From assembly GCF_937425535.1 (NCBI RefSeq), contig NZ_OW485601.1, positions 5,687,501 through 5,751,500 of the forward strand: a stretch of DNA of 64,000 bases, given 5' to 3'. Source of the DNA: Rhodovastum atsumiense. Lineage in GTDB: Bacteria; Pseudomonadota; Alphaproteobacteria; Acetobacterales; Acetobacteraceae. This document shows, piece by piece, positions 29,389-61,056 of the stretch. The notes beneath the pieces were generated by a model. That model searched no databases, was not told the DNA's origin, and saw nothing but the letters and a program-made list of their open reading frames with translations. The translations under genes and the position numbers were made by a program. Within the stretch, counting starts at the first letter, position 1, and each line of letters starts with the position of its first letter.

Positions 29389-30175
29389 CCCGGCCATGCT
29401 GATCGATTCGCATTGCCATCTCGACTACTACCGCCCCGACGAGATCGAGGCCGTGCTGGCCCGCGCCGCCGCGGCGGGGGTGGGCGAGATGGTCACCATC
29501 GGCACCCGGCTGAGCCAGTCGGAGGTGATGCGGCGCCTTGCCGAGACCCATCCCAATGTCTGGTTCACGGTGGGCACGCATCCGCACCATGCCGCCGAGC
29601 AGGAGGTGCCGTCTCCCGAGGCGATCGCCGCCCTGGCGGAGCATCCGCGCTGCATCGGCATCGGCGAGGCCGGGCTCGATTATTTCTACGACAAGGCCCC
29701 GCGGGATGTGCAGCAGGCGGTGTTCCGCGCACATATCCGCGCCGCCCGGCTGGCCGGGGTGCCACTGGCCATCCATGCCCGCGACGCCGATGCCGACGTC
29801 GCGGCGATCCTGCAGGAAGAATGGGATGGCGGCGGTCCTTTCGCCTTCCTGTTGCATTGCTTCAGTTCCGGGCGAGGACTCGCGGAAGCGGCGCTGAAGC
29901 TGGATGGCCACCTGAGCTTCTCGGGCATCCTGACCTTCCCGAAATCCCAGGAAATCAGGGACATCGCGCGCGACGTTCCGATGGAACGTCTGCTTGTTGA
30001 AACCGATTCCCCGTATCTGGCGCCGGTGCCGTTCCGCGGCAAGCGCAACGAACCGGGCTGGGTGGCGCATACCGCGCGCGTGCTGGCCGAGGTGAAGGGG
30101 GTCAGCCCGGAGGCGATGGCCGCGACGACCACCGCGAATTTCCGGCGGTTGTTCAGGAAGGCGGCAGAGGCGTGA
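29369..30175 (+). CDS. tatD: TatD family metal-dependent DNase
   Basis: A 268-residue TIM-barrel hydrolase with two-metal motifs: DSHCHLD near the start, GTHPHHA, GEAGLDYFYD, HARDAD, LHCFSS and ETDSPYLAP. TatD proteins act as 3'-5' exonucleases in DNA repair or quality control. ATG 29369 (overlapping metG, with AGGGGG upstream) or ATG 29396 (MLIDSHCH, the usual family start but no ribosome site) are both possible. The stop overlaps the next GTG. Confidence 0.92.
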   Translation: MSKMPPDPAMLIDSHCHLDYYRPDEIEAVLARAAAAGVGEMVTIGTRLSQSEVMRRLAETHPNVWFTVGTHPHHAAEQEVPSPEAIAALAEHPRCIGIGEAGLDYFYDKAPRDVQQAVFRAHIRAARLAGVPLAIHARDADADVAAILQEEWDGGGPFAFLLHCFSSGRGLAEAALKLDGHLSFSGILTFPKSQEIRDIARDVPMERLLVETDSPYLAPVPFRGKRNEPGWVAHTARVLAEVKGVSPEAMAATTTANFRRLFRKAAEA

Positions 30176-30972
30176 ATACCATGATCCGGGCGGTGTTGAT
30201 GGGGACGGGGGGCTCGGCCGGCGTCCCGCATATCGGCGGCGCCGACGGGCACGGCGACTGGGGCGCCTGCGACCCGCAGGAACCGCGCAACCGCCGCACC
30301 CGCAGTTCGCTGCTGGTCAGCCAGGGCAGTGCGACCCTGCTGGTCGACACCCCCCCCGACCTGCGCGCCCAGTTGCTGGCCAGCGGGACCGCGCGGGTGG
30401 ACGCGATCCTGTTCACCCATGCCCATGCCGACCACATCCTCGGGCTGGACGACGTGCGCATGCTCAACCGCAACATCGGCCGGCCGATCGAGGCCTTCGC
30501 CACCGAGGCCACGCTGTCCGAGCTGAAGCGCCGCTTTGATTACGCCTTCCGCCCCTGGGAGCCGCCCGGCTTCTACCGGCCGGTGCTGATCGAGCACGTG
30601 GTCACCCCCGGCCAGACCGTGCATGCCAGCGGCATGCGGGTGCAGGTGTTCGACCAGGACCACGGCTATTCCCGCTCGCTTGGCATGCGCATCGGCGGGT
30701 TCGCCTATTCGACCGACGTGGTCGGGCTGGACGAGGCCGCCTTCGCCACGCTGGAAGGGGTGGACACCTGGGTGGTGGCCTGTTTCCAGCGGCAGCGCCA
30801 TCGCTGCCATGCCTGGATCGACCAGGTGCTGAGCTGGGTCGAGCGGGTGCAGCCGCGCCGGACGGTGCTGACGCATATGGGCCAGGACATGGACTGGGCC
30901 TGGCTGGTCGAGCACCTGCCGGCCGGCATCGAGCCCGGCTATGACGGCATGGTAATCGACGCGCCGGCCTGA
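30172..30972 (+). CDS. MBL-fold metallo-hydrolase (PhnP-like)
   Basis: A 266-residue metallo-beta-lactamase-fold hydrolase with THAHADH (the HxHxDH zinc motif at about 82-88), further His near LTHMGQDMD and a GSAGVPHIGG N-terminus, as in PhnP/RNase Z-like phosphodiesterases. The GTG start overlaps the tatD stop. It ends the housekeeping series and its 3' end overlaps that of the convergent hybrid kinase gene by 34 bases. The substrate is probably a cyclic phosphate ester; not proven. Confidence 0.88.
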   Translation: MNTMIRAVLMGTGGSAGVPHIGGADGHGDWGACDPQEPRNRRTRSSLLVSQGSATLLVDTPPDLRAQLLASGTARVDAILFTHAHADHILGLDDVRMLNRNIGRPIEAFATEATLSELKRRFDYAFRPWEPPGFYRPVLIEHVVTPGQTVHASGMRVQVFDQDHGYSRSLGMRIGGFAYSTDVVGLDEAAFATLEGVDTWVVACFQRQRHRCHAWIDQVLSWVERVQPRRTVLTHMGQDMDWAWLVEHLPAGIEPGYDGMVIDAPA

Positions 30973-33365
30973 TCCGGTGGCGGCTCGGTGGCGGCGAGCA
31001 GGCTCATGACCCGGTCGGCGAAGCGATCGGGATCGACCGGCTTGTGCAGCAACGCGAACGGCCCGGGGCCGAGCTCGCCGATCGCTTCCACCGCACCGCC
31101 GCCGATATAGCCGGTCATCAGGATGGCCGGCAGGCCGGGGAACCGCCGGCGCGCCTCGCGGATCAGGTCGGCGCCGTTGCGTCCGGGCATGGACAGGTCG
31201 GTCACCAGCACGTCGGGCGGCATCGGCAGCGCGGCCAGCAGCGTCAGAGCCGCCGCGGCATCGGCCGCTTCCTCCACCTCCTGGCCATAGCCGCGCAGCG
31301 ACGCCGCCAACATGCCGCGCACCAGAGCGTCATCGTCGACCAGCACCACATGCACGCGGGTGGCGGCGGGCAGGGCAGGCGCCGGCGCCGGCACGGGGGC
31401 CTCGGCGGCAGCCAGCAGCGCCACCGGCAGCCACAGCGTGACCCGCGTGCCGACGCCGGGCGTGCTGTCGATGGCCAGCGCCCCGCCGGATTGCTCGGCG
31501 AATCCCTTGGCCATCGGCAAGCCGAGGCCGGTGCCCTCGCCATGCGGCTTGGTGGTGAAGAAGGGCTCGGTGACACGGCCAAGGATGTCGGGCGGGATGC
31601 CGGCACCGTTGTCGATGATGATGATGCGCAGGTACTGGCCCGGCGCGAGCCCCGGCCCCGCGGTGTCGCCCACCGCCTCCAGGCAAAGCCGCGGATGCTC
31701 GATCCCGGTGAGGGCATCGCGGGCATTGATGGCGAGATTGACCAGCACGGTGCCAAGCTGGGCACGGTCCACCAGGATCAGGGGCAGGTCGGCGGCGGCC
31801 CGCACCTCCACCCCGATCCGCCCGCCCAGCGTCGGCGCCAGCATCTCGGCCAGCTCTCCGAGCAGCAGGGCCGGATCGACCGGCTCGGCCCGCAGCGCGT
31901 CGCGCCGGGCGAAGGCCAGCAGGCGCCGCACCACCGAGGCGCCGCGCTCGGTGGCCTCCACGATGAGATGCGCCAGCCGCTCGACCGCGGCGGCATCGCC
32001 GGCACGGCGGGTGATCAGGCGGGCGCCGCCGAGCACCGCCTGCAGCGTGTTGTTGATGTCATGTGCGATGCCACCGGCGAGCTGGCCCAGCGCCTCCAGC
32101 TTCTGCGCCTGGCGCAGCGCCGCCTCGGCCCGCTCGCGTTCGACCACCTCGCGGCGCAGACGTTCGTAGGCCTCGGTGAGGGCGCGAGTGCGGGCGGCGA
32201 CCTTGGCTTCCAGCATCTCGTTGGCTTCGCGCAGTGCCGCCTCGGCGCGGCGGCGGTCGCGGATGTCGCGCAGGATGGCGGAAACGCCGAGGACCCGCCC
32301 GTCGGGGGCGAGCATGCGGGCGGCGGCGATCGCCACGTCGATGCGCTCGCCGTCCTTGGCGCGGCGGATGGTCTCGAGATTGACAGGCGCACCGGCCATG
32401 GCGCGGCGGAACACCTCGCCATGGCCCTCCGGCCCCTCGGGGGGGACCAGCAAGCCGACCGGGCCGCCGAGCGCCTCGGTGGTGGTGTAGCCGAACAGGC
32501 GCTCGGCGGCCCGGTTCCAGCTGAGGATGCGACCGTCCTCGGCGGCGAAGCTGACCACCGCATCGGAGGTGGAGGAAATGATGGCGGCAAGCAGCGCGCT
32601 CTCCAGTTCGGCGCGCTTGAGCGCATCGACCTCCAGCGCGCTGCCGACCCATTGCAGGACGTGACCGGCCTCGTTGCGCACCGGGTTGCCGCGGGCGGTG
32701 AACCAGGACCACGCCCCGGCGGCATTGCGCAGCTGCATCTCCACCGCATAGGCGTGGCCCTCGGCGATGGCGCGGCCGTGCAGCTCGCGGACCTGGGCGC
32801 GCTGGTCGGGATGCACCGCCTCCAGCCAGCCGCCGTCCCGGGTCTGGGCTTCGGTGAAGCCGGAGAACTCGTACCAGTAGGGATTCCAGTAGGTGATCTC
32901 GCCCGTGGCGGTGCCGATCCAGACCACCTGGGGGGTGGCTTCCACCAGGGTGCGGAAGCGCAGCTCGCTTTCGCGCACCGCCTGCTCGGCGGCACGGATG
33001 CGCAGCAGCGCGCCCACGGCGGCCACCAGTTCCTCCGGTTCGACCGGTTCGTTGAGGAAGGAATCGGCGCCGCTCTGCAGGCTGCGCACGCGCGCGGAGC
33101 TGGCCTTCACGGTGGCGGAGATCTGCAGCACCATCATCGCCTGGGAATCGCGCTTCAGGCGCCGGCACACCTCGATGCCGTCGATGTCGGGCAGGCGGAC
33201 GTCCAGCAGCACCAGCGCCGGACGCCGCTCCGCGGCCAGCCGCAGCGCCTCGGTCCCGGTGGCGGCGTCGATGACCCGGTAGCCGGCCTGCTCCAGGATG
33301 CGGCGCTTGGCGTAGCGAATGGGTTCCTGGTCGTCGACGTTGAGGATCAGTCTGTGGTCGGGCAT
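30939..33365 (-). CDS. Hybrid histidine kinase: REC-PAS-PAS-HisKA-HATPase-REC
   Basis: An 808-residue soluble kinase, last gene of the stressosome operon. N-terminal receiver with phospho-acceptor Asp 55 (LLDVRLPDIDG), two PAS domains (about 130-250 and 260-375), a coiled-coil, a phospho-acceptor His 435 in GGIAHDINNTLQ, an HATPase domain (NLAINARDAL, GTGLGLPMAKG) and a C-terminal receiver with Asp 723 (VTDLSMPGRNG). No membrane segment, so it senses inside the cell. ATG 33365 overlaps the upstream gene end by 19 bases, so translation is coupled. It is closely similar in its catalytic core to the MASE1 kinase at 53671-56349. Confidence 0.92.
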   Translation of the reverse strand: MPDHRLILNVDDQEPIRYAKRRILEQAGYRVIDAATGTEALRLAAERRPALVLLDVRLPDIDGIEVCRRLKRDSQAMMVLQISATVKASSARVRSLQSGADSFLNEPVEPEELVAAVGALLRIRAAEQAVRESELRFRTLVEATPQVVWIGTATGEITYWNPYWYEFSGFTEAQTRDGGWLEAVHPDQRAQVRELHGRAIAEGHAYAVEMQLRNAAGAWSWFTARGNPVRNEAGHVLQWVGSALEVDALKRAELESALLAAIISSTSDAVVSFAAEDGRILSWNRAAERLFGYTTTEALGGPVGLLVPPEGPEGHGEVFRRAMAGAPVNLETIRRAKDGERIDVAIAAARMLAPDGRVLGVSAILRDIRDRRRAEAALREANEMLEAKVAARTRALTEAYERLRREVVERERAEAALRQAQKLEALGQLAGGIAHDINNTLQAVLGGARLITRRAGDAAAVERLAHLIVEATERGASVVRRLLAFARRDALRAEPVDPALLLGELAEMLAPTLGGRIGVEVRAAADLPLILVDRAQLGTVLVNLAINARDALTGIEHPRLCLEAVGDTAGPGLAPGQYLRIIIIDNGAGIPPDILGRVTEPFFTTKPHGEGTGLGLPMAKGFAEQSGGALAIDSTPGVGTRVTLWLPVALLAAAEAPVPAPAPALPAATRVHVVLVDDDALVRGMLAASLRGYGQEVEEAADAAAALTLLAALPMPPDVLVTDLSMPGRNGADLIREARRRFPGLPAILMTGYIGGGAVEAIGELGPGPFALLHKPVDPDRFADRVMSLLAATEPPPDQAGASITMPS

Positions 33366-35095
33366 GCGCCGGCCTCCATCGCCGCGGCGAGGTGCAGCGC
33401 TTCGCACAGGCTCGCCCGGTCGAGCACGCTCTTGGACAGGACGGGAACGCCCCGCGGCAGGCGCGCGCGCAGGGCGCCGTCGACGGGCAGGGAGGTGCAG
33501 ACCACCACCGGCACCGCTCGCGTGGCCGGATCGGCGGTGAGCGCGCGCAGCAGGGAAAAGCCGTCCAGCCCGGGCATGTTGAGGTCGAGCAGGATGGCGT
33601 CGGGCTGCAGCTCCCGCGCCTGCTGCAGGCCGCTCAACCCGTCGGCCGCCTCGATCGCCTCCCAGCCCGGCTCGGCGCCGATCAGGCGCCGCAGCACGTA
33701 GCGGGCGGCATCCTCGTCGTCGATCACCAGCACCCGCCGCCAGCCGGCGCGCGGCCCCGGCGCGGGCAGCGCCGCGGCGTGGCGCAGCGGGATGACGAGG
33801 CGGAAGCTGGCGCCGGCACCGGGGGTGGAACTGACCGTCAGCGTGCCGCCGAGCAACTCGGCGAGCCGCCGCGACAGCGGCAGGCCGAGGCCGGTGCCCT
33901 TGTTGCGCGCCTGCAGGCTGCTTTCCACCTGCTCGAACGGCTCGAAGATGCGCCCCTGGTCGACGGGCGCGATGCCGATCCCGGTATCGCTGACGGTAAA
34001 GGCCACCCGGTCCTCCTCCAACGCCGCCACGCTCACGCGGACCTCGCCCGTTTCGGTGAATTTCAGCGCGTTGCCGATCAGGTTGCGCAGGATCTGGGTG
34101 AGCTTGGTCTCGTCGGTGACGAGGTCCGGCGGATCGGCCGGCGGCTCGAACACCAGCTCCACGCTGCGATTGGCCTGCAGCGGCTTGAACATGCCGCGCA
34201 GCCCGGCGAACAGGTCGCCGACGCGCAGCGACGCCGGGCGGATCTCCACCTTGCCGGCCTCGATCTTGGCGAGATCGAGCAGGTCGTTCACCAGATCCAG
34301 CAGGCTGCCGGCGGACTGGCGGATGAACAGGACCTGCTTTTCCTGTTCGGCGGACAGCTCGCCGTCGGTGCGGTCGAGCAGCAGGCGCGAGAGCGCCAGG
34401 ATGGAGTTCAGCGGCGTGCGGAACTCGTGGCTCATGTTGGAGATGAAACGGGATTTCAGCTCGCTGGCCTCGCCGAGCTCGCGCGCCTTCTCGTCGAGCT
34501 CGGCATAGAGCGCGACCACGCCGCGATTGGTGTCTTCCAGCTCGCGGTTGAGGCGATCGAGGTCTTCCTGGCGCGCCTGTAGCGCCGACAGCGTGCGCAG
34601 CAACTCGCCGTTCGCCTCGCGCAGGGCGAGGGCGGGATCCTCGCGGCTGGCGGGGGGGGCGGCCAGGGCGCCGGCGGATGGCAAGGCTGTTCCCGGCGGC
34701 AGCGCCTTGCCGAGCAGGACGACGGTGCCGCCGGGGCGGCTTTCGATGATGAAACGGTCGGTCAGGCGGCGCGCGCCGAGCAATCCCATGCCGGCCCGCC
34801 AGCGATCGGCGCCGTACAGCGCGGCATCGAGATCGGCGATGCCCGGCCCCTGGTCGGCGATGCGGACGGCCAGCATCGGCTGCGGATCCTGCAGCAACAG
34901 GATCTCGGCACGGCCGCCGCCGCCATGCACGATGGCGTTGCGGGCGATCTCCGACACGGCGGTGGCGAGGCGGGTCTGGTCCTGCGGATCCATTCCCAGC
35001 CGCGCGGCGACATGGCGGACGCGCTGCCGCACGGCGACAACATCGGGTTCCTGGGCCAAGGCGAGAGTGACGAGCGGCCTGTCCATCTCAATCAT
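33347..35095 (-). CDS. RsbT-like ATPase fused to hybrid histidine kinase and receiver
   Basis: A 582-residue three-part protein. Residues about 1-130 are an RsbT/RsbW-type ATPase domain (EIARNAIVHGGGG, DQGPGI, GLLGARRL). Then come a coiled-coil and a HisKA with His 223 in NMSHEFRTPLNS, an HATPase (NLIGNALKFTETG, GTGLGLPLSRR) and a C-terminal receiver with Asp 504 (LLDLNMPGLDG). Joining a stressosome-type switch kinase to a two-component kinase suggests that the stressosome feeds a phosphorelay. ATG 35095 overlaps the stop of the phosphatase gene by 8 bases. Confidence 0.9.
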   Translation of the reverse strand: MIEMDRPLVTLALAQEPDVVAVRQRVRHVAARLGMDPQDQTRLATAVSEIARNAIVHGGGGRAEILLLQDPQPMLAVRIADQGPGIADLDAALYGADRWRAGMGLLGARRLTDRFIIESRPGGTVVLLGKALPPGTALPSAGALAAPPASREDPALALREANGELLRTLSALQARQEDLDRLNRELEDTNRGVVALYAELDEKARELGEASELKSRFISNMSHEFRTPLNSILALSRLLLDRTDGELSAEQEKQVLFIRQSAGSLLDLVNDLLDLAKIEAGKVEIRPASLRVGDLFAGLRGMFKPLQANRSVELVFEPPADPPDLVTDETKLTQILRNLIGNALKFTETGEVRVSVAALEEDRVAFTVSDTGIGIAPVDQGRIFEPFEQVESSLQARNKGTGLGLPLSRRLAELLGGTLTVSSTPGAGASFRLVIPLRHAAALPAPGPRAGWRRVLVIDDEDAARYVLRRLIGAEPGWEAIEAADGLSGLQQARELQPDAILLDLNMPGLDGFSLLRALTADPATRAVPVVVCTSLPVDGALRARLPRGVPVLSKSVLDRASLCEALHLAAAMEAGACPTTD

Positions 35096-36146
35096 CGGGG
35101 ATGGACGCGGGCGTCGCGGCGACCAGCACGCAGCAATCGTCGCGACCGCGCGCATGATCGCGGTAGAGCAGGGCGGCGGCCAGGGTCGGGTGCAGGGCGA
35201 GCAGGCCGGCCTGGCGCGGCGGCCACCAGGACGAGGCGAGCCCGTCGCTGTGCATGACCAGGACGGCGCCGTCCGGCCAGGGATACTCGAACTCCTGGAT
35301 GCGGCGCAGCTGGTGGCCGGCGGTGCCGTTATGGGAGAGCATCCGCCGGATCTCCGTGCCCGCGACCACCGCGGCGCCGATATTGCCGATGCCGGCGAAG
35401 GTCACGGCGCCACGCGCCGCATCGACGCGAGCGATGGCGACGGCGGCGCCGCGCGTGGGGCGCAACGCCTGGTGGATTGCCTCGAGAATGGCGCCGGGCG
35501 GGCGCAGCGGCGCCTGGCGAAACCGCCGCACCGCTTCCGCGGCGGCATGCGCCGCGTCGGGCCCGTGGCCAAGGCCGTCGGCCATCAGGAACACGCGCAG
35601 CGCGCCCTCGCTGATGGCGGTCCAGGCATCGCCACAGGCACGCTCGCCCCGATGCGGAACAGTGACGGCTCCCCAGGCAGGCGAGAGATCCATGGGCGAA
35701 TGATCCTGTATGGCAAGGCCGTCCGGCGTGGGACGGGACGCCGCGATGGCGAGCCGCGCCAGCACCGCGCTGCCGCTGCCCGGGGCGGATTGCAGCCGGA
35801 ACAGCCGGGCGTTGCGCCGCACCGCGCCGAGGCCCGTGCCGGACGTTCCCGCGGTAGAATAACCATCCCGCAGGCAAAGCCCGGGATCGCGCATGCCGGG
35901 CCCGCGATCGAGGGCCAGCAGGTCCAGCCCGGCATGGGAGGGATCGGAATGCGCGGGATCGGACCAGGGACCGCAGAGCAATTCGCCGCCGCCGCCATGC
36001 TTGAGGAGATTGGTGGCGAGCTCGGTCGCCACCAGCGCGACCCGGCCGACGCCGGCCGTGTCGAAACCCGCCTCCTGTGCCACCTCCACGCAGAGGCGGC
36101 GGGCTTCGCCAACCTGGCTCGTTTCGGTTATTGCAACCGCTAGCAC
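35088..36146 (-). CDS. RsbT-like ATPase fused to PP2C/SpoIIE-type phosphatase (RsbX-like)
   Basis: A 352-residue fusion: an N-terminal switch-kinase ATPase (about 1-130; VATELATNLLKHGGGG, DRGPGM, GTGLGAVRRNA) followed by a PP2C-type serine phosphatase domain (about 150-350; MADGLGHGPDAAHAAAEAV, GNIGAAVV, DDCCVLV). In Bacillus, RsbX resets phosphorylated RsbR/RsbS; this protein may combine kinase and reset roles. GTG start 4 bases after the rsbT stop. The fusion is also seen as an RsbT-RsbX type in other Gram-negative stressosome loci. Confidence 0.88.
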   Translation of the reverse strand: MLAVAITETSQVGEARRLCVEVAQEAGFDTAGVGRVALVATELATNLLKHGGGGELLCGPWSDPAHSDPSHAGLDLLALDRGPGMRDPGLCLRDGYSTAGTSGTGLGAVRRNARLFRLQSAPGSGSAVLARLAIAASRPTPDGLAIQDHSPMDLSPAWGAVTVPHRGERACGDAWTAISEGALRVFLMADGLGHGPDAAHAAAEAVRRFRQAPLRPPGAILEAIHQALRPTRGAAVAIARVDAARGAVTFAGIGNIGAAVVAGTEIRRMLSHNGTAGHQLRRIQEFEYPWPDGAVLVMHSDGLASSWWPPRQAGLLALHPTLAAALLYRDHARGRDDCCVLVAATPASIPDD

Positions 36147-36150
36147 CTGA

Positions 36151-36549
36151 TCATTTCCAGCGCGCGAGCGTCACCCGGGTTCCTTCACCGGACCGGGAGA
36201 CGATGTGAAATTCGTTGCAGAGCCGCCTGGCGCCGCCGAGCCCCAGGCCGAGGCCGCCGCCGGTGGTGAAGCCGTCGGTCAGGGCCTGCTCGATGTCGGG
36301 GATGCCGGGGCCCTGGTCCTCGAAGGTCAGGCGCACGCCGCGGCGCGGGCCATCGCTCAGGGTCTCGATCAGCACGGAGCCGCCGCCGCCATAGTCGAGC
36401 GTGTTGCGTGCGATCTCGCTGGCGGCGGTGATGATCTTGGTCTGGTCGACCAGGCCCAGCCCGGCCTGGACCGCATGCAGCCGCACGGCCTGGCGGATGC
36501 GCACGACGTCGTCGCTGCTGCGGATGGGCAGGCTTTCACGCCCGGGCAC
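36151..36549 (-). CDS. rsbT: Stressosome switch kinase RsbT
   Basis: A 132-residue serine/threonine kinase of the GHKL fold that phosphorylates RsbS and RsbR in the stressosome and is released on stress. N box with Glu 45 and Asn 49 (EIARNTLDYGGGG), G1 box DQGPGI at 78-83, and Gly-rich lid GGGLGLGLGGARRL. The GTG start lies inside the end of rsbS (14-base overlap), typical of stressosome operons. In Bacillus RsbT then activates RsbU; there is no RsbU or SigB here. Confidence 0.92.
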   Translation of the reverse strand: MPGRESLPIRSSDDVVRIRQAVRLHAVQAGLGLVDQTKIITAASEIARNTLDYGGGGSVLIETLSDGPRRGVRLTFEDQGPGIPDIEQALTDGFTTGGGLGLGLGGARRLCNEFHIVSRSGEGTRVTLARWK

Positions 36550-36892
36550 GGCGGATCAGCGCCATGCCGCGCTCGACATTGAGCGCGGTCCGCACGCCGG
36601 GCAGCGAGAGGCCGAGTTCGACCAGGGTGATCGCCACCGCGGGCCGCATCCCCACCACCACCGTCTCGGCGTCGAGCACGCGGGAGACGGCGGCGATGTT
36701 GCCGAGCATGCGACCGATGAAGCTGTCGACGATCTCGAGGGAGGAGATGTCGATCATCACCCCGCGCGCCCCGGTGGCGGCGATGCGGTTGGTCAGGTCC
36801 TCCTCAAGCGCCAGGACCAACTGGTCGTGCATGTCGACCTGGATGGAGACCAGCAGCGCGTCGCCCATCCTGAGGATCGGAATGCGGTCCAT
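36536..36892 (-). CDS. rsbS: Stressosome scaffold RsbS (STAS)
   Basis: A 118-residue single STAS domain. The segment DISSLEIVDSFIGRML matches the Bacillus RsbS phosphorylation site, the equivalent Ser being 57. The next conserved stretch is GMRPAVAITLVELGL. It would assemble with RsbR into the 1.8-MDa stressosome core and hold RsbT. ATG 36892 (MDRIPILRMG) is chosen over in-frame upstream codons because it gives the family length; the rsbR stop lies 10 bases before. Confidence 0.93.
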   Translation of the reverse strand: MDRIPILRMGDALLVSIQVDMHDQLVLALEEDLTNRIAATGARGVMIDISSLEIVDSFIGRMLGNIAAVSRVLDAETVVVGMRPAVAITLVELGLSLPGVRTALNVERGMALIRRARA

Positions 36893-36902
36893 CCTGCTTG
36901 CG

Positions 36903-37751
36903 TCACGCGCGTGGGGCGGAGGCGATGACCTCGCGGCCGATACGACGCAGCGCCAACGCCAGGGCGTCGGCAAGCGTTGCCTTGGACACGACGTTCAGCT
37001 CGACGCCGAGATGGACCATGGTCTGGGCGATCTGCGGGCGGATGCCGCTGACGATGCAGTCCGCCCCCATCAGCCGAGCCGCGGCGACGGTCTTCAGCAG
37101 ATGCTGGGCGACCAGCGTGTCGACGGTCGGCACGCCGGTGATATCGATGATCGCGATCTCGGCGCTGTGATCGACGATGCTCTGCAGCAGGTTCTCCATC
37201 ACCACCTGGGTGCGCTGCGAATCCAGCGTGCCGATCAGCGGCAGCGCCAGCACGCCGTCCCACAGCTTGACCACCGGCGTCGACAGCTCGGCGATCTCCT
37301 GCTGCTGGCGGACGATGATCTCCTCGCGGTTGCGCTGGTAGATCTCGAAGGCATGCAGCCCGAGGGTGTCGATCACCTGGGTGATGTCCCAGACCATGCG
37401 CGCATCGCCACGGTTGCGCTCGATCGTGGCGAAGACCGGCTGCTTGAGCGAGAACACGAAGATGGCGGTCTCGGCGCCGGAGAAGCCCTGCAGCGCGCGG
37501 CTGCGCGAAATCTCGGTGAGGCTGTCGCGCAGCGGGGCATAGTCGGGTGCGGCGGCATCGGTGCCGGCGGCGGCGAGGGCGGTGGCGAGGCGGTGCAGCA
37601 CGGTGCGGCACTGCGCCTGCAGTTCACCCTCGCGCAGCCGGCCGGACTGCAACGCCCCCTGCTGGCGCAGCAGGTCGAGCCAGTGCGCCAGGATGTCCGG
37701 CTCGTGCGCGGCGATGAGGGTGGCGAGATCGGACGGGGAAGCCTGGGACAT
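36903..37751 (-). CDS. rsbR: Stressosome sensor RsbR (N-terminal sensor plus STAS)
   Basis: A 282-residue protein with an N-terminal helical sensor domain (about 1-150, RsbRD_N-like rather than clearly globin), a linker helix (NREEIIVRQQQEIAELSTPV) and a C-terminal STAS domain. Both RsbR phosphorylation positions are conserved: Thr 212 in DITGVPTVDT and Thr 244 in GIRPQIAQT. It is the first gene of a six-gene operon. ATG 37751 is preceded by a modest GGAGCG site. The input signal is unknown; no haem or flavin motif was recognised. Confidence 0.92.
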   Translation of the reverse strand: MSQASPSDLATLIAAHEPDILAHWLDLLRQQGALQSGRLREGELQAQCRTVLHRLATALAAAGTDAAAPDYAPLRDSLTEISRSRALQGFSGAETAIFVFSLKQPVFATIERNRGDARMVWDITQVIDTLGLHAFEIYQRNREEIIVRQQQEIAELSTPVVKLWDGVLALPLIGTLDSQRTQVVMENLLQSIVDHSAEIAIIDITGVPTVDTLVAQHLLKTVAAARLMGADCIVSGIRPQIAQTMVHLGVELNVVSKATLADALALALRRIGREVIASAPRA

Positions 37752-38098
37752 ACCGGCGCAACGCTCCTGGTCAGGAATGGGGGCGGAATGGCTGGTGAAG
37801 GATTTGGGTGAGTGTAGGAGGGGCCTCGGCAGCGGGAAACGCACCGGGCTCCTGCCCGGGGGGCCATGGCGGCGCAAACGCGGTCACATGACCTTGAGAA
37901 GCGGTCCGGTCCCCCACGCCCTGCACGGCACGCATCCGCGGAAATGCAGGCGTGCGGAGGGCAACCGGAGGGCGAGCCCACCCGAGGTTGCGGGGCGCGA
38001 GACGACTGGCCTAGAAGGGGCGCCGTTGGCGGCGCCCGTCATCATGCGCTGACCCAGGCGGCCCGGCCGCTTCTCCTTTTCCAACATCGTTGCGTCAA
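37752..38098. promoter_or_regulatory. Divergent control region between stressosome and SPFH operons
   Basis: These 347 bases separate the minus-strand stressosome operon from the plus-strand SPFH/P-type ATPase operon and hold no convincing gene. Two hairpins are visible: CCGGGC-TCCT-GCCCGG (37844-37859) and GGGCGCCG-TTGG-CGGCGCCC (38018-38037). No clear sigma-70 boxes or EcfG-type GGAAC site were found. The placement allows shared regulation of both operons. Confidence 0.4.
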
Positions 38099-39982
38099 AT
38101 GAACGATCTTCCCGCTGCACGCCTCGAGCCTGCACATCTTGATCCTGGGCGCCCCGAGCCAGGGGAAGGTGCGGCGCTGCCGGACCGGGCCACCGCGGCG
38201 TCGGCGCTGCGGCTGGTGCGCCGGCTGACATTGGGCCTCGCCCTGGCGGCTGCCCTGCTGGCGGCGCCGCCGGCCCTGGCCGGGGTGTTTCCCTCTGTCA
38301 CGATGCTGCGGGAACTGGGCCGTGCCCCGTTCATGACCTTGCCCCTGGCGGCCCTGCTGGTGGCCCTGGCCGGGTTCGCCGGCAGTTGGGCGATGGCCTG
38401 GGCGAGGGGGCGCGGCGACCCCGATCTGGTGCGGCGCGCGGCGCGCTGGCCGCAGGCGCTGCTGGTGGTGCCGCTGGCCGGGGCGGTGGCCGCGGCCGTG
38501 CTGCTGCCACGGGCAGCGATCCCGCCGGCCGCCCCGGAGACGGCCTGGCTGTGGGGCGGGACCATGGTCGTCCTGGCCTTCCCGCTGCTGCTGGCCGAGC
38601 GGGTGCTGGCGACCCTGCCGCCGGCGCGGCTGCCGGAGGCGCCGGCGCTGCGCGGCCTGATCTTCCTGCCCACGATCCTCCTGCCGGCTGCCGGCCTGCT
38701 GGAAATCGCCGCCGGGCTGGGGGCGCCGTCCCTGGCCGGGCGGCTGGCGACGGCGTTGTCGCTGCTGCCCTGCGCCATCGCCGCCGAGCTGGCCCTGCGC
38801 GCGGCCGGGCGCTGCTTCCTGCCGCCGCCGCCGGCCGCCGAGGCTCGCGCGGCGGTGCGCTCGGTGCTGGCCCGCCTGCTGGCCGAGGGGCCGAGGGCAG
38901 GGGGGCTGGCCGCGCCGGTGCGGCAGCACCTGGGCATCGATTTCACCCGGAGCTGGGCGCTGGCCTATGTCCGCGCCGCCTTCGCGCCGCTGGTGCTGGC
39001 GCTGCTGCTGCTGTCCTGGGGCCTGAGCGGCGTCGCCATCGTCGGGGTCGACCGGCGCGCCGTCTATGAACGCTTCGGGGCGCCGGTGCGGGTGCTGCAG
39101 CCGGGGCTGCATCTGGTGTTGCCCTGGCCGCTCGGCCGGTTGCGAGCGGTCGAATTCGGCACCGTCCACGAAGTCGGTCTGAAGCGCGGTGATGCCGTCC
39201 CGGACCGCTTCGGCGCCGAGGATATTCCGCCGCCCGGTGCCGACCGCCTGTGGGAGCGCAGCCACGCCAACGAGACCTGGTTCCTGATCGCCGCCGCGCG
39301 TAACGGCCAGCAGAGCTTCCACATGGTCAACGCCGATATCCGGCTGTTCTACCGGATCGGGCTCGGCGACGCGGACGCGCTGCGCGCCACCTATGGCGTG
39401 GTCGACCTGCCGTTGCTGCTGCGCCGGATGGCGGGGCGGGTGATGGCGGGCTTCTTCGCCGGGCGCACGCTGGAAGCGGCGCTGGGCGAGAACCGCGAGG
39501 CCATGGCCGAGCGGCTGCGCGCCGTGCTGCAGCGCGACCTGGATGCGGCGGGCACCGGGCTCGACCTCACCGCGGTCATGATCGATGCGATCCATCCGCC
39601 CGGCGGCGCCGCCGATGCCTACCATGCCGTGCAGGCGGCGCAGATCAGCGCCGAGGCAAGCATTTCTGCCGAGCGCGGCCGGGCCCATGCCACCCAGGCG
39701 GAAGCCTGGCAGGGCGTGGCGGCGCTGGCCACCGATGCCCGGGCGACCTCGGCGGAGCTGGTCAACACGGCGACCGCCGACGCCACCCGTTTCGCCGCCG
39801 ACCGCGACGCCGCTGCGGCCGCCGGCCGCGCCTTCCTGTTCGAACGCCGCCTTTCCAGCCTCGCCACCGCCCTGACCTCGATGGACCTGCTGGTGGTCGA
39901 TCATCGCCTCGGCGGTGCGGAGGCGCCGCTGATCGACCTGCGCCCGCCCACCAGCAGCCTCGGCAAGGAGCCCACGAATTGA
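38099..39982 (+). CDS. SPFH (HflK-like) protein with large polytopic N-terminal domain
   Basis: A 627-residue membrane protein. Residues about 40-315 hold six or seven hydrophobic segments, far more than the single anchor of HflK. An SPFH/band-7 domain follows (about 315-560; VGVDRRAVYERFGAPVRVLQ, LHLVLPWPLGRL) and then an Ala-rich helical tail (SAEASISAERGRAHATQAEA). SPFH proteins build membrane scaffolds and HflK/C regulates FtsH. ATG 38099 is used; TTG 38090 is possible. It is the first of four genes with overlapping ends, so a complex with the other SPFH proteins and the ATPase is likely. Confidence 0.85.
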   Translation: MNDLPAARLEPAHLDPGRPEPGEGAALPDRATAASALRLVRRLTLGLALAAALLAAPPALAGVFPSVTMLRELGRAPFMTLPLAALLVALAGFAGSWAMAWARGRGDPDLVRRAARWPQALLVVPLAGAVAAAVLLPRAAIPPAAPETAWLWGGTMVVLAFPLLLAERVLATLPPARLPEAPALRGLIFLPTILLPAAGLLEIAAGLGAPSLAGRLATALSLLPCAIAAELALRAAGRCFLPPPPAAEARAAVRSVLARLLAEGPRAGGLAAPVRQHLGIDFTRSWALAYVRAAFAPLVLALLLLSWGLSGVAIVGVDRRAVYERFGAPVRVLQPGLHLVLPWPLGRLRAVEFGTVHEVGLKRGDAVPDRFGAEDIPPPGADRLWERSHANETWFLIAAARNGQQSFHMVNADIRLFYRIGLGDADALRATYGVVDLPLLLRRMAGRVMAGFFAGRTLEAALGENREAMAERLRAVLQRDLDAAGTGLDLTAVMIDAIHPPGGAADAYHAVQAAQISAEASISAERGRAHATQAEAWQGVAALATDARATSAELVNTATADATRFAADRDAAAAAGRAFLFERRLSSLATALTSMDLLVVDHRLGGAEAPLIDLRPPTSSLGKEPTN

Positions 39983-40914
39983 TCCCGATGCCACGCCTGC
40001 TGCAGGCCACGCTGCGCTTCACCCTGGCCGGCATCGTGCTGGCGGGGGCCGGGCTGGCCGGAACCGCCGTCATGGTCAGCTCCGGCGAGGCGGTGGTGGT
40101 GACCCAGTTCGGCGCCCCGGTGCGGGTGCTCACCGAGCCGGGGCTCGCCTGGAAGCTGCCGGCGCCGCTGCAGGCCACCATCCCCGTCGATTTGCGCCTG
40201 CGCACCAGCTCGACCGGGCTGCAGGACGTAGGCACTCGCGACGGGCTGCGCATCCTGGTGCAGACCTACGTCGCGTGGCAGGTGCCGCCCGAGCCCGAGC
40301 GCGTCCGCCAGTTTCTGCGCGCGGTCCGCAACGATCCGGACGAGGCGGCGCGCCAGTTGCGCAGCTTCGTCGGCTCAGCGCTGCAGGTCACCGCCAGCAG
40401 CTTCGATCTGGCCGACCTGGTCAACACCGATCCCGCCCGGCTGCGCCTCGGCGCCTTCGAGCAGCGGCTGAAGGCGCAGGTGGAAGGGCAGGTGCTGCAG
40501 ACCTACGGCATCCAGGTGCAGCAGGTCGGCATCGAGACGCTCAGCCTGCCCGACGCCAGCCTCGTCGCCACGGTGGCTCGCATGCGCTCCGAGCGCGAGA
40601 CGGTGGCCGCCGAGCGCACCGCGGAAGGGCTGCGCGCCGCCGCCGAGGTCCGCTTCAACGCCGAGCGCGACGCCCGCATCACCATCGCCCGCGCCCGCAC
40701 CGAGGCGGCGGAGATCGAGGCCACGGCACGGCGCGAGGCGGCGGAGATCCAGGGCCGCGCCTATGCGGCCGACCCGCAGCTTTACATGATGCTGCGCGGT
40801 CTCGACACGCTGGGACAGGTGGTCGGCAGCAACACCCGGCTGGTGCTGCGCACCGATGCCGCGCCGTTCTCGCTGCTGGTGCAGGAACCCCTCGCGGCGG
40901 AGCCGCGGAAATGA
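39979..40914 (+). CDS. SPFH domain protein (HflC-like)
   Basis: A 311-residue protein with one N-terminal membrane anchor (about 8-35), an SPFH domain (VVVTQFGAPVRVLTEPGLAWKLPAP at the start, in two overlapping blocks) and a helical Ala/Arg/Glu tail (ARTEAAEIEATARREAA), the HflC layout. TTG 39979 overlaps the previous stop (TTGA) and has AAGGAG 9 bases upstream, so it is preferred over ATG 39988. It is the probable partner of the HflK-like protein before it. No ftsH gene is nearby. Confidence 0.88.
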   Translation: MIPMPRLLQATLRFTLAGIVLAGAGLAGTAVMVSSGEAVVVTQFGAPVRVLTEPGLAWKLPAPLQATIPVDLRLRTSSTGLQDVGTRDGLRILVQTYVAWQVPPEPERVRQFLRAVRNDPDEAARQLRSFVGSALQVTASSFDLADLVNTDPARLRLGAFEQRLKAQVEGQVLQTYGIQVQQVGIETLSLPDASLVATVARMRSERETVAAERTAEGLRAAAEVRFNAERDARITIARARTEAAEIEATARREAAEIQGRAYAADPQLYMMLRGLDTLGQVVGSNTRLVLRTDAAPFSLLVQEPLAAEPRK

Positions 40915-41918
40915 CCGCCGGCCCTCTCGCGGGGGACGGGACGCCGGACGGGCCGGTCGTCCAGTCGCTGCGGATCAGCTTCCGCGTGCTGTCGCTGGCC
41001 ACGCTGCTGCTCGGGCTGGGTTGGGCCGTTTCCAATTGCCGCCAGGTGCCGCCGGAGTCGCAGATCGTCGTCACCCGGTTCGGCGACGTCGTGCGGGTGC
41101 AGCAGGCCGGGTTGCTGCTGGCCTGGCCACGGCCGATCGAGCAGGTCGAACTGCTGCCGGCGCCGGCGCGCCAGAACGAGATGAAGGTGACCGCGCGCAA
41201 TCCCGCTTTGCCGGACGGCGCCGGCACCTACCTGACCGGCGACGCCGGCGCGGTGCTGCTGGGCGGGACGCTGACCTGGCGCATCGTCGATCCGGTCGCC
41301 TATTTCCAGAGTCGCACCCATGTTGCCCCGGCGCTGAACCGGCTGTTCGCCGCCAGCGCGGTCAGCATCGCGGCGGGACGCTCGATCGACCGCTTCCTGG
41401 TGGTGCGGACCGAGCGCGACGGTGCCGACCCGCAGGTCCAGGCCCAGCGCCAGGCGCTGCGCGGCGAACTGGTGGAAGAGATCAACCGCCGGCTCCGTGC
41501 GCTGGAGACGGCGGGCGCGCCGCTCGGCGTCGAGGTGACCCGGGCCGATCTGGAAGCGTCGTTGCCCGCGCAGGCCCGGCCGGGCTTCGATGCGGTGCTG
41601 GCGGCCACCCAGCGCGCCGAGCAACGCCTCGCCGATGCCCGCACCGAGGCCACCCGCACCCTGCAGACCGCCGACCGCGAATCCGACCGCATCGTGACCC
41701 AGGCGCGCGGCGAGGCGGAGGAGCGGGTCGGGAAGGTCCGTACCGAGGTCGCCGCCGTGGCCGCGCTGGCGGCGCGCGACGCGCCCGCCGGCCGTCCCGC
41801 CTTGCTGGACCAGTTCTACCGCGAGCGCATCGCCGCGGTGCTGGGCCAGGCCGGCCGGGTGATCACCGTGGACCCGCAGGGCAGCAACCGCCTGATCCTG
41901 CCCGGAATACAGCCATGA
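40911..41918 (+). CDS. Third SPFH domain protein (HflK/HflC-like)
   Basis: A 335-residue protein: membrane anchor about 25-45 (VLSLATLLLGLGWAVSNC), SPFH domain (IVVTRFGDVVRVQQAGLLL, LTWRIVDPVAYFQSRTHV) and a coiled C-terminal tail. It is more diverged than the second SPFH gene. Start ATG overlaps the previous TGA (ATGA), and its own stop overlaps the ATPase ATG the same way. Three SPFH genes in a row is unusual; HflK and HflC normally come as a pair. Confidence 0.86.
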   Translation: MTAGPLAGDGTPDGPVVQSLRISFRVLSLATLLLGLGWAVSNCRQVPPESQIVVTRFGDVVRVQQAGLLLAWPRPIEQVELLPAPARQNEMKVTARNPALPDGAGTYLTGDAGAVLLGGTLTWRIVDPVAYFQSRTHVAPALNRLFAASAVSIAAGRSIDRFLVVRTERDGADPQVQAQRQALRGELVEEINRRLRALETAGAPLGVEVTRADLEASLPAQARPGFDAVLAATQRAEQRLADARTEATRTLQTADRESDRIVTQARGEAEERVGKVRTEVAAVAALAARDAPAGRPALLDQFYRERIAAVLGQAGRVITVDPQGSNRLILPGIQP

Positions 41919-43846
41919 GCATGAGTGCCACCGTCACCGAGTTGCCGACCGGGATGCTGGCGCGCAGCGAGCGGCTGCTGCTCGGGGCGCGGCTGACCCT
42001 GGCCATGCTCGCCGCCGGCTTGCTGGTGGTAGCGCTGGCCTGGGAGTTCGCCGTGCCCGAAGGGACGGCAGTGGCGACCCTGGTGGCGAGCACCGCCGCG
42101 GCGCTGGTCGCCGTGCCGGTGCTGATGGCCGCCTGGCAGAGCCTGCGCGCGCCGAGCCTGCACGGCATCGCCGACCGGCTGATCGCGCTGGCGCTGATCG
42201 CCGCCTGGGCGAATGGCGACATGATGACGGCGGCGGTGCTGCCGATCGTCATGATCATCGGCCATGTGCTGGAGGAACGCAGCCTGCTCGGCTCGCGCGA
42301 GGCGATCCGGGCACTCGGCCGCCTGACCGAGACGCAGGCGCGGCGGCTGCGCGGCGGCGTGGTGGAGATCGTGCCTGCCGCCTCGCTGCGTCCGGGCGAT
42401 CTTGTGGAACTGCGGGCCGGCGACCGCGTGCCGGCGGACGGCATCGTGCGGGCAGGGACCGCCAGCCTCGACATGGCCTCGCTGACCGGGGAATCGGTGC
42501 CGGTGGACGTCACGGTCGGCGAGACGGCGCTGCTCGGCGCCATCGCCACCAACGGCCGGCTGGAGGTCGAAGTCACGCTGACCGGCGCCGACACCACGCT
42601 CGGCCGGATCATTGCGCTGATGCGGGCGGCGGAAGACGCCAAGCCGCCGGTCACGCGGCTGCTGGAGCGCTATGCCGGGCAGTATCTGTCGCTGGTGCTG
42701 GTGATCGCCGGCGGCACCTGGTTCGCCTCGGGCAACATGGCGGCGACCCTGGCGGTGCTGGTCGCCGCCTGTCCCTGTGCCCTGGTGCTGGCGGCGCCGG
42801 CCACCGCGATCGCCGCCATCGCGGTGGCGGCGCGGCACGGCATCCTGATCAAGGGCGCCGCCTTCCTTGAAAGCCTCGCCGATGTCAGGTCGGTGGTGTT
42901 CGACAAGACCGGCACCCTGACCACCGGCGAGCTGTCGCTGGCCCGTGCCATGCCGTGCGCGGGGACGACGGAGCGGGACTTGCTGCTGGTCGCGGCGAGC
43001 CTCGGGGTTGCCAGCAGCCATCCGGTGAGCCGGGCCGCCGTCCGCGCCGCGATGCGGGCCGCGCCGGACGCGGCGTCGCCCGCCGTGACCGGGCTGCGGG
43101 AGGAAGGCGGTTTCGGCATGACCGGCAGTTGCGCCGGCGTGCCGGTCGCCTTCGGGCGGCCGGAGCTGTTCGGGCGGCTCGGGGTCGCGGTGCCGCCGGT
43201 CCCGGCGCATGACGGCCCGATCGCCGGGGTCGGCCGCGACGGCGTGTTCCTGGGATGGCTGCTGTTCGCCGACGCGCCGCGCCCGGAAGCCGCCTCGGTG
43301 CTGGCCGAGTTGCGGGGGCTGGGGCTGGAGCGGCAGTTGCTGCTGACCGGCGACCGGGCCGCCGTGGCACGACGCATCGGCGGCGAGCTCGGCATTCCCG
43401 AAATCTGCGCCGAGACCTTGCCCGAGCAGAAGATGCAGCGGGTGCAGCAGGAGACCCGCAACGGGTTTCCGCCCTTGGTGGTCGGGGACGGTATCAACGA
43501 CTCGCTGGCCTTGCGGGCCGGCGCGGTCGGTGTCGCCATGGGGGCGCAGGGCACTGACGTGGCATTGGCCTCGGCCGACGTGGTGCTGATCACCAGCGAC
43601 CTGCGGCGGATCGCCACCGCGATCCGGCTCAGCCGGCGCTGCCGCCGCACCATCCAGGTCAATGTCGCGATCGGCCTGGGCTGGACGATGGTGCTGGTGG
43701 CGCTGGCGGCCGCCGGCCTGCTGGGCGCCCAGGGCGCGGTGATCGCCGCCTTGCTGCATAACCTGTCCACCTTCATCGGCCTGGCCAATGCCGGGCGGCT
43801 GCTGCTGTTCGACGAGACCGGACGCGCGGTGCCGCCAACGCCATGA
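41915..43846 (+). CDS. P1B-type metal ATPase without N-terminal HMA domain
   Basis: A 643-residue heavy-metal ATPase. CPC is at 286-288, the phosphorylated Asp of DKTGT at 330, the actuator loop reads SLTGESVP, and an HP motif SSHPVSR is present. There is no CxxC metal-binding domain, and the first membrane segments start near residue 27. The hinge reads GDGINDSLAL (524-533), lacking the near-universal Pro after the residue following Asp. The C-terminal helix HNLSTFIGLANAGRLLLF differs from copper ATPases. It is tightly coupled to three SPFH genes; substrate unknown (possibly Zn, Co, Mn or another metal). Confidence 0.9.
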   Translation: MSMSATVTELPTGMLARSERLLLGARLTLAMLAAGLLVVALAWEFAVPEGTAVATLVASTAAALVAVPVLMAAWQSLRAPSLHGIADRLIALALIAAWANGDMMTAAVLPIVMIIGHVLEERSLLGSREAIRALGRLTETQARRLRGGVVEIVPAASLRPGDLVELRAGDRVPADGIVRAGTASLDMASLTGESVPVDVTVGETALLGAIATNGRLEVEVTLTGADTTLGRIIALMRAAEDAKPPVTRLLERYAGQYLSLVLVIAGGTWFASGNMAATLAVLVAACPCALVLAAPATAIAAIAVAARHGILIKGAAFLESLADVRSVVFDKTGTLTTGELSLARAMPCAGTTERDLLLVAASLGVASSHPVSRAAVRAAMRAAPDAASPAVTGLREEGGFGMTGSCAGVPVAFGRPELFGRLGVAVPPVPAHDGPIAGVGRDGVFLGWLLFADAPRPEAASVLAELRGLGLERQLLLTGDRAAVARRIGGELGIPEICAETLPEQKMQRVQQETRNGFPPLVVGDGINDSLALRAGAVGVAMGAQGTDVALASADVVLITSDLRRIATAIRLSRRCRRTIQVNVAIGLGWTMVLVALAAAGLLGAQGAVIAALLHNLSTFIGLANAGRLLLFDETGRAVPPTP

Positions 43847-59244: not shown

Positions 59245-59680
59245 GTCGTCCTCCAACGGCGCGATGGATAAACAGAAGGCAGGTCATGCCCGGTCGCGGC
59301 TGATGCCGAAGGGGCGCAACGCGCCACCTTGCATCGGCGCGGGCCGAGCATATGTGCCTCCTTGCACGTGAACTGGGTTGGCGCGACGGCGACCGTACCA
59401 GTGCACGTACAAAGAACGCCCGCGCAAGGGTCGGCCGCGGGCGGGCTGCACAGATATCCGGTCGTCTCGACGTCGGCGGGTCATGCGTCTCTGAGGCGAA
59501 GGGGCCTCTTCCATATGAATGAGGGGCCCCCAGGCGGCTAATCCGCCACCGGCATTCGTCGGACGCTAGCCTCTGCCCCGCGGCAAGCCAAGCGGAATGT
59601 TTCGTGCGACATGATAATTTGTGGAATTTCAGCAACCTCCGGCCCCCGAGGGGAACGAGAAGGGCTTTAATTCCCCTGCC
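59245..59680. other. Intergenic region, no gene seen
   Basis: 436 bases between the repeat-protein gene and the wrbA stop codon. Short frames on both strands lack ribosome sites and recognisable sequence. No strong hairpin was seen. Confidence 0.4.
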
Positions 59681-60280
59681 CTATCCTCGCAGCGCCGTCG
59701 CGACTCGGGTCACGCGGCACCCCTGCCATCGCGCCGCGGCGCGTTCATCCTCGGTGATCGGCCGGGGGCTCTGCCCGACGGCGGCGGTCGCGCCATAGGG
59801 CGTGCCGGCCTTCGTCATCGCCGGGTCGGCATAGCCCGTGGGCACGATGATGAAGCCCAGATGCGCGAGCGGCGGCCAGAGCGACAGGATGGTGGCCTCG
59901 TTGCCGCCATGCAGCGAAGCGGTGGAGGACAGCACCGATCCCACCTTCCCGACCAGCTTGCCGGCAGCCCACAGGCCACCGAGCGAATCGATCCAGGACT
60001 TCAGCTCCGAGCTGACGCATCCGAACCGGGTCGGCGTCCCCAGGATCACGGCGTCGGCCCATACCGCATCCTCGGCGGAGGGCGCCTCGTAGGCGGCATT
60101 CATGCGCTGCGCCGTCTCGTGCCAGCCTGGCACCCGGGTCATCACCTCGTCGGAGACAAGTTCACGCACGCGGCGCAGCCGTACCTCCGCCCCCTCGCTG
60201 CGGGCGCCCTCGGCTGCGGCGGCGGCCAGGCTCTCGATGGTACCGGAACGGGAATAGAAGGCGATCAGCACATTGGTCAT
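59681..60280 (-). CDS. wrbA: NAD(P)H:quinone oxidoreductase WrbA family
   Basis: A 199-residue flavodoxin-like protein. The FMN phosphate loop is YSRSGTIE at about 9-16; GTPTRFGCVSSELKSWIDS and SSTASLHGGNEATILSL follow the WrbA pattern. It reduces quinones by two electrons, protecting against oxidative stress. Strong ribosome site GGGGGAAAG. The lipocalin gene lies 123 bases upstream on the same strand. Confidence 0.9.
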   Translation of the reverse strand: MTNVLIAFYSRSGTIESLAAAAAEGARSEGAEVRLRRVRELVSDEVMTRVPGWHETAQRMNAAYEAPSAEDAVWADAVILGTPTRFGCVSSELKSWIDSLGGLWAAGKLVGKVGSVLSSTASLHGGNEATILSLWPPLAHLGFIIVPTGYADPAMTKAGTPYGATAAVGQSPRPITEDERAAARWQGCRVTRVATALRG

Positions 60281-60403
60281 GGTCTTTCCCCCGGCCTGCC
60301 GGCACGGCGGTGCCGGTCAGGGCTTGCGCAAGCTGACATGGCCTGGACCGCTGCCCTGGCCACCGGGCCAGCCACACAATCCCGCGCGAGGGGATGCGAC
60401 GGA

Positions 60404-60967: not shown

Positions 60968-61056
60968 GCGCTCAAGGTGGCGATGGGCGCAGGCACCGCA
61001 AGATGCGCGATGCCGGGTTCTCGCCAAACCACAAGATGTTGCTCTAGCGTCACCGC

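Follow-up and report, generated by a model that had tools for sequence, protein, structure and literature searches.

A stressosome operon in Rhodovastum atsumiense in which a hybrid histidine kinase carries an RsbT-like domain, with a possible phosphorelay output

The window analyzed here, a stretch of 64,000 nucleotides from Rhodovastum atsumiense, carries six head-to-tail genes on its minus strand, running from 37751 to 30939. These encode RsbR, RsbS, RsbT, a phosphatase with an N-terminal ATPase domain (T-PP2C), a hybrid histidine kinase that begins with an RsbT-like domain (here referred to as the T domain and the T-kinase), and a second hybrid kinase (kinase 2). Every domain named below for the six genes was matched in Pfam above the cut-off. 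With the start codons used, 10 bases lie between rsbR and rsbS and 4 between rsbT and the T-PP2C gene, while rsbS and rsbT overlap by 14 bases, the T-PP2C and T-kinase genes by 8, and the two kinase genes by 19. The Pfam matches and start codons thus bear out what a first-pass annotation of this DNA had claimed for the number, strand and place of the genes, the gaps of 10 and 4 bases and the overlaps of 8 to 19 bases. The features are as follows.

36903..37751, minus strand: rsbR, sensor-type RsbRD_N N-terminus and STAS domain, with Thr212 and Thr244 at the phosphosites (Pfam, locus alignment)
36536..36892, minus strand: rsbS, single-domain STAS scaffold with phosphosite Ser57 (Pfam, locus alignment)
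36151..36549, minus strand: rsbT, free switch serine-kinase domain with intact ATP-site residues and a GTG start (Pfam, residue comparison)
35088..36146, minus strand: T-PP2C, HATPase_c_2 domain of a separate class and SpoIIE/PP2C phosphatase, in the position of RsbX (Pfam, tree)
33347..35095, minus strand: T-kinase, RsbT-like domain, long helix, HisKA, HATPase_c and REC (Pfam, predicted fold)
34700..35095, minus strand: RsbT-like domain of the T-kinase, with Arg23 and Glu49 present and a G2 box two residues shorter (PF13581, alignment, predicted fold)
34490..34636, minus strand: linker helix of the T-kinase, at least 49 residues, reaching the end of the modeled piece, with a conserved TNRGVVALYAELDEK stretch (alignment, predicted structure)
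34253..34456, minus strand: HisKA phosphoacceptor domain of the T-kinase (Pfam)
33782..34117, minus strand: HATPase_c catalytic domain of the T-kinase (Pfam)
33488..33733, minus strand: receiver domain of the T-kinase (Pfam)
30939..33365, minus strand: kinase 2, REC-PAS-PAS-HisKA(CckA-like)-HATPase_c-REC, the presumed next relay step (Pfam, NCBIfam)
33015..33347, minus strand: N-terminal receiver of kinase 2 (Pfam)

The first three genes have the parts of a stressosome RST module, namely, a sensor-type RsbR with both threonines, a single-domain RsbS with its serine and an adjacent RsbT. RsbR matched RsbRD_N with 84.9 bits and STAS with 50.3 bits, both above the Pfam cut-off. The phosphosites RsbS Ser57 and RsbR Thr212 and Thr244 were found as described in the first-pass annotation and are kept across the 94 to 95 loci that were fetched: the Ser57 position holds S in 90 of 94 loci and T in the other 4, the Thr212 position holds T in 92 of 95 and S in the other 3, and the Thr244 position is T in 91 of 95. 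Asp23 of RsbS is an aspartate in all 94 loci. The rsbT gene lies directly after rsbS, and its product has an HATPase_c_2 match above the cut-off and a complete set of ATP-site residues. A search for RsbU_N (PF08673) gave no match in the whole genome, with a positive B. subtilis control, and thus the canonical target of RsbT is missing; neither the T-kinase nor kinase 2 has a Pfam match to this domain.

The gene directly after rsbT encodes a SpoIIE-type phosphatase (44.7 bits in Pfam) in which the metal-site motifs are present, and loose patterns for the three PP2C metal-site motifs were matched by 83, 87 and 87 of 88 homologues. This protein is not a single-domain phosphatase, as Pfam places an HATPase_c_2 domain at its N terminus. 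The first-pass annotation had counted three RsbT-like ATPase domains in a row, which holds insofar as all three belong to HATPase_c_2; the one fused to PP2C forms its own class, without the RsbT-type residues that are common to RsbT and the kinase domain.

In a search with PF13581 (cut-off, 27.4 bits), the T domain of the T-kinase scored 51.4 bits, free RsbT 32.6 bits and the T-PP2C domain 31.0 bits. Together with the best fold matches, SpoIIAB and RsbW, this confirms the earlier assignment of positions 34700 to 35095 to an RsbT/RsbW-type domain. The predicted structure of the T domain and linker (pLDDT 91) has a switch-kinase fold that leads into a helix of 49 residues or more, and the first sixteen PDB matches were chains of SpoIIAB, RsbV/RsbW and UsfX/RsfB complexes, with histidine kinases appearing only after them. 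The remainder of the T-kinase has HisKA, HATPase_c and REC domains, as does kinase 2 (Pfam). A tree built from SpoIIAB and 85 of the 250 T domains, with few columns and mostly weak forks, placed RsbT, phosphatase and kinase T domains in one group each (supports of 75, 79 and 94, respectively). As the kinase T domains form a single group, we rejected the idea that the fusion arose recently and in this genome only.

The residues within the T domain follow the same division. Arg27, Gln40, Thr45, Ser48 and Arg52 are present in 61, 62, 65, 64 and 67 of 69 kinase T domains and in 89, 78, 94, 94 and 93 of 94 RsbT sequences, respectively, and in only 4, 7, 0, 3 and 2 of 87 phosphatase domains. All 69 kinase T domains have both Arg23, at the STAS-contacting position, and the catalytic glutamate, Glu49. 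Arg23 and Glu49 of RsbW contact Asp23 and Ser56 of RsbV (PMC7340262). The SpoIIAB counterparts are Arg20, close to the site of SpoIIAA, and Glu46, which serves as catalytic base (PMC10345196). Arg23 of the window's T domain was equated with SpoIIAB Arg20 by an ungapped profile alignment extended by two positions.

The ATP site of the same domain is less well kept. In the window's T-kinase, the N-box and G1 are present and the GxGxG sequence is missing through a two-residue gap in the G2 box/ATP lid. Among the homologues, the full set of five ATP-site residues occurs in 60 of 69 kinase T domains, 85 of 87 phosphatase domains and all 93 RsbT rows that cover them, a count from which one further RsbT row, interrupted by a frame change, was left out. 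The excess of incomplete sites in kinase T domains (9 of 69) over RsbT (0 of 93; Fisher p=3e-4) and over phosphatase domains (2 of 87; Fisher p=0.012) is overstated by these p-values, since the losses lie partly in one branch of the tree and hence are not all independent. GxGxG is missing from 12 of 69 kinase T domains, including the one in this window, from none of 87 phosphatase domains and from 5 of 94 RsbT rows, four of which have a similar glycine-rich loop, the fifth being the row with the frame change. By either test, the ATP site is damaged in 14 of 69 kinase T domains, the window's among them, and looks intact in 55. In those 14 domains, the pattern points to docking rather than catalysis. 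The 55 intact-looking domains could be active serine kinases, and the conserved glutamate is also the catalytic base.

The first-pass annotation had named close relatives as the place to look for the two kinases beside rsbRST. An rsbS profile matched none of the 59 relatives searched, of which 6 belong to the same genus, 29 to the same family and 24 to the same class, and since these relatives lack rsbRST itself, the adjacency of the kinases was judged on distant genomes that have it, where it mostly holds, with exceptions. Of 385 genomes of the class, 14 encode proteins similar to RsbS, and the rsbS profile matched 36 of 398 genomes in a sample of the phylum, with some of these rows being rsbR; both counts include the genome studied here. 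Searching named genomes with the rsbS alignment yielded at least 573 relatives, and the best 80 loci were analyzed; as they were picked by rsbS similarity, the counts that follow describe this rsbS clade and not all stressosomes. The phosphatase was in the expected place in 72 of these 80 loci and was T-fused in all 72. Seven of the other eight break off at a contig end 75 to 926 bases past the rsbS frame; the eighth (L125) has its T-PP2C and T-kinase genes some 4 to 7 kb away on the opposite strand. The next gene after the phosphatase in the 72 loci encodes a T-fused protein in 59 cases; in 12, it encodes the same kinase, but no T domain was detected. In L158, the T-kinase gene precedes rsbR, and in L135, one of the 59, the contig ends ahead of the kinase core. 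By their record names, the 59 T-fused loci belong to eight phyla, and the 12 loci without the T domain are all from beta- or gammaproteobacteria. Among the 13 other genomes of the class set, 7 have the T-fused kinase, 3 the kinase without it and 3 (L073, L074 and L076) different rsbRST neighbors; the set also includes a second stressosome locus of the genome studied here, which brings the last of these groups to 4. Since 12 of the 72 named loci from the best 80, together with L066 of the class set, have this kinase with no detectable T domain, the fused domain is not essential to the operon. We noticed that the kinase at L128:11776-13821, counted as lacking the T domain, has a longer N terminus that, by eye, may be a decayed one.

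A ninth phylum, Deinococcota, is added by Deinococcus radiodurans, in which plasmid MP1 carries all six genes in the same order (L160; NC_000958.1, 25219-31023; DR_RS15570-15595). Their Pfam domains are RsbRD_N-STAS, STAS, HATPase_c_2, ATPase-PP2C, ATPase-HisKA-HATPase-REC and REC-HisKA-HATPase. The arrangement recurs in dozens of distant genomes and is far beyond chance. A profile of the T domain plus linker, run on the 398 phylum genomes, gave 11 matches reaching the linker in 10 genomes, this genome included, and as only seven candidates were scored per genome, T-kinases may have been missed. Ten of the 11 fusions lie 1.4 to 1.5 kb from an rsbS, and the eleventh (G685:C1:502177-502785) has, at 0.9 kb, a STAS gene about as long as an rsbR and is not near the rsbS of its genome. 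The full-length T-kinase (P0005) found unrelated hybrid kinases when compared with the relatives, and among the matches listed outside its own genome, none starts before residue 115 of 582. Within its own genome, the alignment with a hybrid kinase at C1:2853468-2855042 begins at residue 32 (35% identity); this protein does not match PF13581 and was not counted as a fusion. On MP1, the operon adjoins a ParB gene and is a few kilobases from several transposases.

The same T domain and linker precede three kinase cores: the HisKA core of the window, a CckA-like HisKA core and HisKA_2. The CckA-like core, which is nearer to that of kinase 2, was found by BLAST and Pfam in six loci (L087, L098, L109, L118, L085 and L129), four of them from Methylobacterium, and Pfam placed HisKA_2 behind the T domain in four loci of the class set. 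Behind the window's core, the next gene encodes a REC-first kinase in 47 of 55 loci, and five of the eight exceptions are at or near a contig end; a REC-first kinase also follows in 13 of 13 loci in which the kinase lacks the T domain. It follows none of the six CckA-like cores, with L098 continuing into another hybrid kinase, and none of the four HisKA_2 cores, one of which (L070) stops at a contig end. The window's kinase core and kinase 2 thus tend to occur as a pair, as would suit a relay linking the two. For the transmitter of kinase 2 itself, the nearest models are an NCBIfam histidine-kinase subfamily and CckA, with scores far under the curated cut-offs. Receivers usually carry a lysine where the first receiver of kinase 2 (33015-33347) reads LNEP, and this domain may be a non-standard receiver.

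Judging from gene content and sequence, we consider it somewhat more likely than not that this is a stressosome with a phosphorelay output, coupled to it through switch domains built into the output proteins. The first-pass annotation had proposed that a phosphorelay replaces RsbU/SigB, and this proposal finds partial support in the genome-wide absence of RsbU_N and in the kinases that usually lie beside rsbRST in the sampled clade. More tentatively, and with the odds in our estimate somewhat against it, the T domain may be an RsbT-derived docking domain, turned pseudokinase in some lineages, through which RsbR:RsbS captures and releases the kinase along with RsbT, the stressosome thus acting as a hub in at least nine phyla. 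Both the docking on RsbS and the direction of the signal are what we infer. At rest, the T-kinase would dock through its T domain on RsbS, in the groove that also takes RsbT, via the STAS-contacting arginine and the glutamate, and this would hold the T-kinase on the stressosome in a fixed state, either off or on. Under stress, RsbT would phosphorylate Thr212 and Thr244 of RsbR and Ser57 of RsbS, RsbT and the T-kinase would be released, the coiled-coil state of the helix would change, and the T-kinase would autophosphorylate. Phosphate would then pass from the receiver of the T-kinase to kinase 2 and on to a further regulator, and T-PP2C, docking through its own domain, would reset the phosphosites. 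The published RsbT-RsbU mechanism (PMC12143880) supports the helix as the part that may transmit the signal.

The main rival to docking is that RsbT acts in trans. RsbT released from the stressosome would bind the coiled-coil linker of the kinase as it binds that of RsbU, and the fused T domain would be an optional or decaying part for dimerization or modulation. We regard this as unlikely overall, yet several observations speak for it. Most of the 13 kinases without a T domain have some 50 to 60 helix-like residues before HisKA, no sensor by eye, and an rsbRST operon, and in the kinase of this type from Pseudomonas L133, Pfam detects only HisKA and HATPase_c. Moreover, RsbT orders the linker of RsbU, an idea that PMC12143880 extends to histidine kinases with RsbU_N. 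This domain is, however, absent from both kinases here, and the T domain, where present, is under a strong consensus across phyla that goes beyond what a vestige would keep.

Signal flow in the reverse direction, with the phosphorelay feeding the stressosome, seems to us improbable. In this reading, the fused T domain would be a second serine kinase for RsbS or RsbR and would be governed by the histidine kinase and its receiver. It has a precedent in SypE of Vibrio fischeri, which joins a serine-kinase domain, REC and PP2C and is switched by phosphotransfer (PMC10120452), and this reading would agree with the 55 of 69 kinase T domains that are free of ATP-site damage by both tests. The 14 domains with damaged-looking sites, the window's included, occur in operons that are otherwise kept, which argues against it, and the REC-first kinase that travels with this core suggests that phosphate leaves the T-kinase. 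That the kinases are mere neighbors of rsbRST with no functional link, as the class-set loci L073, L074 and L076 with other adjoining genes might suggest, is very improbable and was rejected, as the adjacency holds across phyla and a switch domain is fused to the kinase.

For the reading that we favor, a stressosome coupled to a phosphorelay, the general link to two-component signaling is already published. Heinz et al. 2022 (PMC9237108) describe two-component downstream modules for RSTX-D1-D2 of Vibrio vulnificus and for other RSTX modules, and rsbRST coupled to various outputs, including two-component signaling, is attributed to Pane-Farre et al. 2005, as cited in PMC10014275. Like the RSTX modules, the operon described here has an RST core, PP2C directly after rsbT, downstream kinase/receiver proteins and no adjacent SigB cascade. 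The RSTX modules, as presented in PMC9237108, have a single-domain PP2C and a globin-coupled-sensor RsbR, whereas here the PP2C is fused to an ATPase domain, RsbR is of the RsbRD_N type, and the first kinase bears an RsbT-like domain; it is this switch domain, fused to the kinase, that is newer. In the study of the RSTX modules, RsbU_N went undetected in the majority of the downstream proteins considered, and attempts to show that VvRsbT binds VvD1 were reportedly unsuccessful. The likeness to RsbT-RsbU (PMC12143880) lies in an RsbT-type domain beside a helical linker that connects to a dimeric catalytic domain; there, RsbT acts in trans on RsbU_N and linker, while here the RsbT-type domain is fused before the linker and RsbU_N is absent. 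Compared with rsbRSTUVW-sigB-rsbX of B. subtilis, RsbR, RsbS, RsbT and an RsbX-like phosphatase are shared, but the genome has no RsbU_N and the neighboring output consists of two hybrid histidine kinases. Precedents for a switch serine-kinase domain fused to signaling domains are SypE (serine kinase-REC-PP2C; PMC10120452) and Rv1364c, with RsbU and RsbW domains (PDB 3ke6); as described there, neither is fused to a HisKA histidine kinase in an rsbRST operon, unlike the T-kinase. In the openly licensed literature on stressosomes, RsbT and their outputs, we found no description of an RsbT-like domain fused to a histidine kinase, which is weak evidence of absence. A kinase with its own RsbT-like domain offers a concrete physical link for stressosome output outside the Bacillales, and with the whole operon on plasmid MP1 of D. 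radiodurans, it is accessible to gene removal in a standard laboratory strain. If the docking reading is true, the stressosome would sequester kinases and serve phosphorelays as a hub, instead of switching a sigma factor.

The genome encodes a second stressosome, rsbR-rsbS-rsbT-(T-PP2C), at G000:C1:3544000-3547500 (L078), followed by large hybrid kinases; no T-fused kinase was detected at this locus. In the window, an MBL-fold gene at 30172-30972 and the genes before it are kept in relatives, and in G006, a genome of the same genus, homologues of the window genes at 59618-62268 lie about 2.7 kb after the MBL-fold gene. From this one comparison, with G006, the stretch with the stressosome, approximately 30970 to 59600 of the window, may be an insert or part of one, and the spacing in G006 together with the absence of rsbS from the searched relatives raises the possibility of horizontal gain. 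Beside the operon, at 38090-43846 of the window, lie divergently read SPFH/Band 7 genes and a P-type ATPase gene recognized by eye from its DKTGT motif. A cluster homologous to this one is located on another contig in G004, also of the same genus.
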